The notes under the pieces are model-generated. The model was not told where the DNA came from. It did no database searches and saw only the letters and a list, made by a program, of their open reading frames with translations. A DNA stretch of 64,000 nucleotides. Origin: Methanoculleus oceani. Its GTDB lineage: Archaea > Halobacteriota > Methanomicrobia > Methanomicrobiales > Methanoculleaceae. Both the position numbers and the translations under genes were made by a program. The stretch's first letter is position 1, and each line of letters opens with the position of its first letter. Shown in pieces: positions 29,128 through 55,042 of this stretch. The stretch is taken from the NCBI RefSeq assembly GCF_023702065.1, contig NZ_QFDM01000001.1, positions 496,001-560,000 on the forward strand, given 5' to 3'.

Positions 29128-29202
29128 TAGCGAGGGATGGATTTGAACCATCGATCTACGGGTTATGAGCCCGCCGGGATTTCCTGACTACCCCACCTCG
29201 CT
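29128..29202 (-). tRNA. Initiator tRNA-Met (anticodon CAU)
   Basis: The 75-nt minus-strand sequence folds as a full cloverleaf. The acceptor AGCGAGG/CCTCGCT has an A1-U72 pair, the anticodon arm GCGGG-CTCATAA-CCCGT has the run of G-C pairs typical of initiators, and the T-arm contains GGTTCAAATCC. The discriminator is A and no CCA is encoded. There is no intron. The A-U first pair and GGG/CCC anticodon stem mark it as initiator rather than elongator. Confidence 0.95.
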
Positions 29203-53994: not shown

Positions 53995-54516
53995 TCACCC
54001 GAACCGGAAGATCCTGAGCCCCTCCCCGCGGATCTCCCGCCCGGCGAGGTGCTCCATCTCGTGGTCGATCCCGTAGGCGGTGGAGCCCGAGAAGGCCATC
54101 TCCACGGCGCCGAGGTCTTCGGTCCGGATCGTCCGCTCGAGCGGGTGGACGGTCATCCGGATCGCCCGGCGGGCAGCAAGGCGCACCCGGTAGGGCCGCT
54201 TGACGAGCAGCCGGACGGGAGCGTTGCCGCACTTCTCGAGCCGGTGGACCGTTCCCTCCCGGTCCAGGAGGACCGGGTCGACGAAGAGGTAGATCTCCTC
54301 AAGCGAGTAGCCGGTCCGGCTCTCTTCGTCGTAGACTGTGGTCTTCGTGACGGCCGAGATGGCGGTGAGACCATCCGCGGCGTAGCTCCAGTCGCCACCG
54401 TAGCGGAGCGAGAAGAGGAGGGGGACGAGCGCATCGGCGGGTATGCCGAACCGGTCCGCGAGGGCGGCCTCCGCGGCGGCAAAAGCGAGTTCTTCCCGGA
54501 TCTCGTCGGTCTCCAT
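53995..54516 (-). CDS. Peptide deformylase-like metalloprotein
   Basis: The 173 residues have the order of deformylase motifs in altered form: ADGLTAISAV (place of GXGLAAXQ), FVDPVLLDREGTVHRLEKCGN (place of NP-I followed by EGCLS) with Cys96, and GIDHEMEHLAGREI with His152, Glu153 and His156 (HEXXH). Cys plus two His are the metal ligands of true deformylases. Archaea start proteins with unformylated Met, so the substrate must differ. An N-terminal helical extension of about 40 residues precedes the fold. The gene stands alone on the minus strand. Confidence 0.65.
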   Translation of the reverse strand: METDEIREELAFAAAEAALADRFGIPADALVPLLFSLRYGGDWSYAADGLTAISAVTKTTVYDEESRTGYSLEEIYLFVDPVLLDREGTVHRLEKCGNAPVRLLVKRPYRVRLAARRAIRMTVHPLERTIRTEDLGAVEMAFSGSTAYGIDHEMEHLAGREIRGEGLRIFRFG

Positions 54517-54673: not shown

Positions 54674-55042
54674 ATGAAAGACCTGTTGACGGTTCTGCTG
54701 GATATCGAGAAGCGGGCCTGGGAGGCTGCCGACACCCGGGACGTGGAGTTCTACCGTGATTATCTCGCGCCGGAAGCCCTTGTCGTCAGCCCCCCGGGCA
54801 TCCTCTCCCGGGAGGGGATTCTCGAGGATCTCACACAGAACCCCCATGAACTGCCCGCGTACACCCTCAGGGACCCGAAGGTCGTGCCCCTCGGGGAGGA
54901 GAGCGCCGTTCTCGTCTACACCGTCTCTTTCGGCGGGCAGACGCTCTTTGTATCGACCGCGTATACACGGAACGACGGCCGGTGGCGGGCGGCCTTCCAC
55001 CAGCGGACGCCTGCTTCTCCTGTGACCGAACCGGCGGATTAG
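54674..55042 (+). CDS. NTF2-like (DUF4440/SnoaL-type) protein
   Basis: The 122 residues start MKDLLTVLLDIEKRAWEAADTRDVEFY, with an N-terminal helix, then YLAPEALVVSPPGILSREGILEDL and strand motifs SAVLVYTVSFGGQTLFVSTAYTRNDGRWRAAFHQRTP. This is the cone-shaped NTF2 fold used as a small-ligand or dimer domain. The exact reaction is unknown. The end overlaps the convergent thiE end by 4 nt. A likely TATA element (GTTATTATCG) lies near 54640. Confidence 0.85.
   Translation: MKDLLTVLLDIEKRAWEAADTRDVEFYRDYLAPEALVVSPPGILSREGILEDLTQNPHELPAYTLRDPKVVPLGEESAVLVYTVSFGGQTLFVSTAYTRNDGRWRAAFHQRTPASPVTEPAD

Follow-up and report, generated by a model that had tools for sequence, protein, structure and literature searches.

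What does a protein that resembles peptide deformylase do in an archaeon? The question comes from a 64,000-nucleotide stretch of the Methanoculleus oceani genome (the window; positions 496,001 to 560,000 of NZ_QFDM01000001.1), for which a preliminary description reported a deformylase-like protein. The gene, which we call PDFL, lies at 53995..54516 on the minus strand. It has an ATG start at 54516, encodes 173 amino acids, and is present in just one copy in the M. oceani genome. Its translation does contain Cys96 and, at residues 152-156, HEMEH, which were the residues first singled out. In pairwise comparisons with most congeners, dN/dS is about 0.2-0.3 and third-position changes are in excess, so an antisense reading frame of 165 amino acids over the same bases can be set aside as non-coding. 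Judged from these substitutions, PDFL is a real gene under selection.

First, we considered whether PDFL is related to deformylases. AlphaFold modeled the window protein with a mean pLDDT of 92.9 and a pTM of 0.86. When this model was compared to the PDB with VIA-align, the top matches were all deformylases (Z 10.6 over 125 aligned residues, rmsd 4.2). There were 157 chains with Z of at least 8 and only 161 with Z of at least 5; because nearly all of the chains above 5 are also above 8, the deformylases stand apart from other folds. Foldseek also ranked deformylases first, with a modest best E value of 9.1e-4, and a search of BFVD gave no match below 1e-3. A separate model of the homolog from genome G536, a member of family f8 that we take to be Methanosarcina acetivorans, has a pLDDT of 93.8 and again matched deformylases (Z 10.8, 120 residues, rmsd 3.0). 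Among the top matches listed for either model, there are only peptide deformylases. On these models, PDFL almost certainly has a deformylase fold and metal site, and the original deformylase-like call, for which structure prediction was the proposed check, holds for both proteins.

Sequence profiles point weakly in the same direction. Of 40 family members, 36 have subthreshold matches to the deformylase family of Pfam (PF01327), and the best matches of PDFL to PDB profiles are deformylases (E = 0.03). No deformylase model in the library passes its curated cutoff on PDFL: the window protein scores 15.6 bits and the best relative 22.1 bits against PF01327 (cutoff 22.8 bits), and the relatives listed score at most 15.9 bits against TIGR00079 (cutoff 103.95 bits). 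Comparing the PDFL profile to archaeal deformylases gave E = 0.0056 and a probability of 6.5%, which is weak because the set of deformylases was narrow, and we give it no weight.

Conservation of the ligands among homologs, the other check proposed in advance, is complete: C96, H152, E153, E155, and H156 do not vary among 40 sequences or among 35 more diverse ones. G40, G41, W43, R92, L93, E94, R102, R107, and P108 are also invariant in PDFL. The equivalent of motif I is GGDWSYA (residues 40-46; 54379..54399, minus strand), which lacks the catalytic glutamine of GXGLAAXQ. The degenerate GXGLAAXQ-like segment mentioned in the preliminary description corresponds to R-Y-G40-G-D-W-S-Y-A, where the invariant G40, G41, and W43 are found but the glutamine is not. 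The equivalent of motif II is RLEKCG (residues 92-97; 54226..54243, minus strand), with Cys96 (54229-54231) as the presumed metal ligand. Motif III corresponds to HEMEH (residues 152-156; 54049..54063, minus strand), with His152 and His156 as presumed ligands and Glu153 as the presumed general base. Across the family, the three motifs read GG[DSA]WSY, E[KR]C[GS] (with lysine, or arginine in two sequences, at the glycine of EGC), and HE[MLI]EH (with an invariant glutamate for aspartate), instead of the classical G-phi-G-phi-A-A-X-Q, EGCXS, and HE-phi-DHXXG. The ligands were said to have the order and spacing of those in deformylases; the order is the same, but Cys96 and His152 are 56 residues apart in every member of the family, versus 42 for L065, a canonical deformylase.

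Overall, PDFL shares with peptide deformylases of types 1 and 2 (PF01327, TIGR00079) the predicted fold, the cysteine and HExxH metal set with its glutamate base, the order of the motifs, a VINPEI-like strand, an RP 11-12 residues after the cysteine, and an alanine five residues before the first histidine. The invariant Arg102 and Arg107 may lie near the positions of conserved deformylase arginines. PDFL differs from these types in lacking the motif I glutamine, in having EKC for EGC and HExEH for HExDH, in the longer spacing from cysteine to histidine, in having an N-terminal helix in place of the usual N-terminus, and in falling below all of the curated cutoffs. A third type of deformylase, with altered motifs, has been described from archaea, trypanosomes, and various bacteria, and activity is reported to be mostly weak or absent in those of archaea and trypanosomes (PMC5591237, PMC12690207). 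Like PDFL, type 3 deformylases occur in archaea, have changes in motifs I and II, and have no solved structure reported; the likeness is by description, as the archaeal type 3 sequences are not named in those papers (PMC5591237, PMC12690207). Since archaeal relatives of deformylase are already described, PDFL is a further variant of them rather than something wholly new.

Within the class, PDFL matches were found in 48 of 232 genomes. Searching a sample of the phylum with a profile added many more genomes, from families f8 and f36; homologs occur in Methanomicrobiales, in a Methanosarcinaceae-like family, and in one further family. Within the phylum sample, on which the family profile was run, PDFL is confined to methanogen-related lineages; beyond the phylum, the scan used single-protein patterns only. 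At the sensitivity used, no match was found among plasmids, phages, or viral contigs that would suggest a mobile origin. The tree places f8 and f36 on one side and Methanomicrobiales on the other (split support 98/85), consistent with descent from one ancestor followed by many losses and, within Methanomicrobiales, some exchange. Within Methanoculleus, a full-length PDFL is present in 19 of 35 genomes, and pseudogene-like remnants with deletions are found in three (G047, G052, and G062). PDFL is thus conserved yet, as these decayed remnants show, dispensable. Copy number also varies: G105 has two intact copies in tandem (L045 2935-5279), and a second copy is partial or decayed in G059 (L060) and G069 (L063).

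What might PDFL act on? No Met-tRNA formyltransferase was found in the M. oceani genome above the TIGR00460 cutoff of 201.5 bits (the best score was 54.7 bits), so formyl-methionine would be an unexpected substrate. (The window also contains an initiator tRNA-Met, at 29128-29202 on the minus strand, with the anticodon arm GGG-CTCATAA-CCC and an A1-U72 end.) PDFL probably either cuts another amide or has been reused. We favor, with a probability of roughly 0.5, that PDFL is an active amide hydrolase that acts on something besides nascent formyl-methionine. The preliminary description had taken a different N-acyl or formyl-amide substrate to be implied, which is plausible, but the loss of the motif I glutamine also fits weak or lost catalysis.

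Indeed, PDFL might instead be a weak or dead relative of deformylase with a metal-binding or regulatory role, such as in the supply of molybdenum/tungsten (Mo/W) or Fe-S cofactors. We consider this doubtful, although it has a real chance of being correct. Besides the missing glutamine, the mostly weak or inactive type 3 deformylases of archaea and trypanosomes favor it (PMC5591237, PMC12690207), and so does the gene neighborhood. In 14 Methanoculleus genomes, and in G080, the genes immediately ahead of PDFL encode a molybdate/tungstate-type ABC transporter (solute-binding protein, permease, and TOBE-ATPase); FdhD lies directly after PDFL at three loci (L114, L115, and L131), the first of which also has a cysteine desulfurase before PDFL; and SufC-SufB follow PDFL at L129. 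These neighbors hint at enzymes of formate or formylmethanofuran, but this Mo/W and Fe-S cofactor category was picked post hoc, with the data already in view. Against such a role, Glu153 is invariant along with both ligands, even though metal binding does not require it and catalysis does. Also, M. oceani has kept PDFL without the transporter, and three genomes (G050, G055, and G075) have kept the transporter without PDFL; because each persists without the other, a strict link between the two is disfavored.

More broadly, a search for operons found no neighbor of PDFL that is common to all clades. In the window, the divergent neighbor is a DUF4440 gene (54674..55042, plus strand), which lies beyond the transporter operon in several congeners (such as L152, L031, and L034). 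Phylogenetic profiles were uninformative about dependence on FdhD because FdhD is present in 221 of the 232 genomes. A link to thiamine, which was considered since thiE and thiM adjoin PDFL in the window, was dropped because this arrangement is not common to other genera.

Alternatively, PDFL might be a true deformylase that acts on formyl-Met peptides, which could come from bacteria by uptake or arise in side reactions. The fold, the ligands, and the two invariant arginines would all suit such an enzyme, but M. oceani seems to lack the formyltransferase, the two motifs that bind the substrate's backbone (I and II) have been rewritten, and the gene has decayed in several species. We therefore view this as quite unlikely. 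The broader statement that archaea do not formylate initiator methionine fits the missing formyltransferase in M. oceani but does not hold universally among its relatives within the order. In genus g13, which we take to be Methanocorpusculum-like, closed genomes contain a def with full motifs and, directly after it, fmt. The g13 fmt scores 280 bits, versus the cutoff of 201.5 for Fmt. In G024 (L181 1011-2430), def and fmt are separated by one base, and the canonical pair is also present in G043, G027, G044, and G114. Most g13 genomes have two deformylases, and the end of the g13 initiator tRNA is A1-U72, as usual for archaea. The def of g13 and PDFL belong to a common superfamily and are found in the same archaeal order; unlike PDFL, the def of g13 has the motifs GVGLAAPQ, EEGCLS, and QHEYDHLDG as well as a formyltransferase partner, and by its motifs it represents a separate line of descent. 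These gene pairs suggest that N-formyl-methionine, or another pair of formylation and deformylation reactions, exists in an archaeon. Separately, G221 encodes a member of the divergent PDFL family (L144) and a deformylase-family gene that exceeds the Pfam cutoff (C26:276436-276891).

As a special case of the favored explanation, PDFL might hydrolyze N-formylmethanofuran or a related formamide of C1 metabolism. Formylmethanofuran is a formyl amide and is the product of a Mo/W enzyme that has an amidohydrolase subunit (PMC11656701), and both the restriction of PDFL to methanogen-related lineages in the phylum sample and its FdhD and Mo/W transport neighbors would agree with this substrate. Nevertheless, we consider it very unlikely: PDFL is missing from most organisms in the sample that use methanofuran, the gene context is loose, FwdA already serves this bond, and hydrolysis would waste formyl groups. 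In the literature library searched, no work links deformylase and methanofuran. Another formamide was considered as well, with PDFL replacing ArfB (FAPy deformylase). PDFL and the creatininase family (PF02633) do not have complementary distributions: PF02633 is also absent from 8 of 10 PDFL-negative genomes tested, and G221 contains both. The creatininase family, which includes ArfB in other archaea, is absent from 19 of the 22 genomes tested, among them the window's own genome (entries L188, L189, and L190).

Finally, all 40 members of the family match PF05618 (Zn_protease), and many, such as L122 5926-6453, are claimed by this Pfam family above its cutoff; the M. acetivorans homolog passes it at 2e-19. 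That PDFL is an "ATP-dependent zinc protease" is nonetheless extremely improbable, as the match is partial (the first 24 positions of the profile are missing), the DTGA of genuine PF05618 proteins (L157-L162 and L178) is absent, profile comparison detects nothing shared with those proteins, and the predicted fold is that of deformylases. Based on these sequence and structure comparisons, the PF05618 label on the relatives of PDFL is probably wrong, possibly because PDFL-family sequences are in the Pfam seed.

Returning to PDFL as an amide hydrolase, we propose a diverged member of the deformylase fold that would have been inherited in two methanogen-related lineages and would have kept the mononuclear metal center. 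Cys96, His152, and His156, along with a water, would bind Fe2+ or Zn2+. Glu153 would activate the water, and attack by the water on a formyl (or small acyl) amide at its carbonyl would release formate (or the corresponding acid) and an amine. In the deformylase of E. coli, the oxyanion is held by the motif I glutamine and by the backbone after the cysteine. PDFL may retain the backbone part; because the usual glutamine is missing, the metal and backbone NH groups near Cys96-Gly97 would hold the oxyanion. Since the gene is dispensable and the M. oceani genome yielded no Met-tRNA formyltransferase above the cutoff, the likely substrate would be a small or accessory amide rather than nascent formyl-methionine. 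A more specific proposal would make PDFL an amide hydrolase dedicated to the biology of methanogen C1 metabolism or of Mo/W enzymes, with GGxWSY as a new motif I and, as its substrate, a formyl amide that is not formyl-methionine; this seems unlikely. Either way, PDFL is a clean archaeal family that lends itself to testing, is recognizable by a signature of its own (GG[DSA]WSY, RLE[KR]C, and HExEH), and occurs in organisms that seem to lack the known substrate; its substrate would reveal a role for the deformylase fold outside of protein synthesis.
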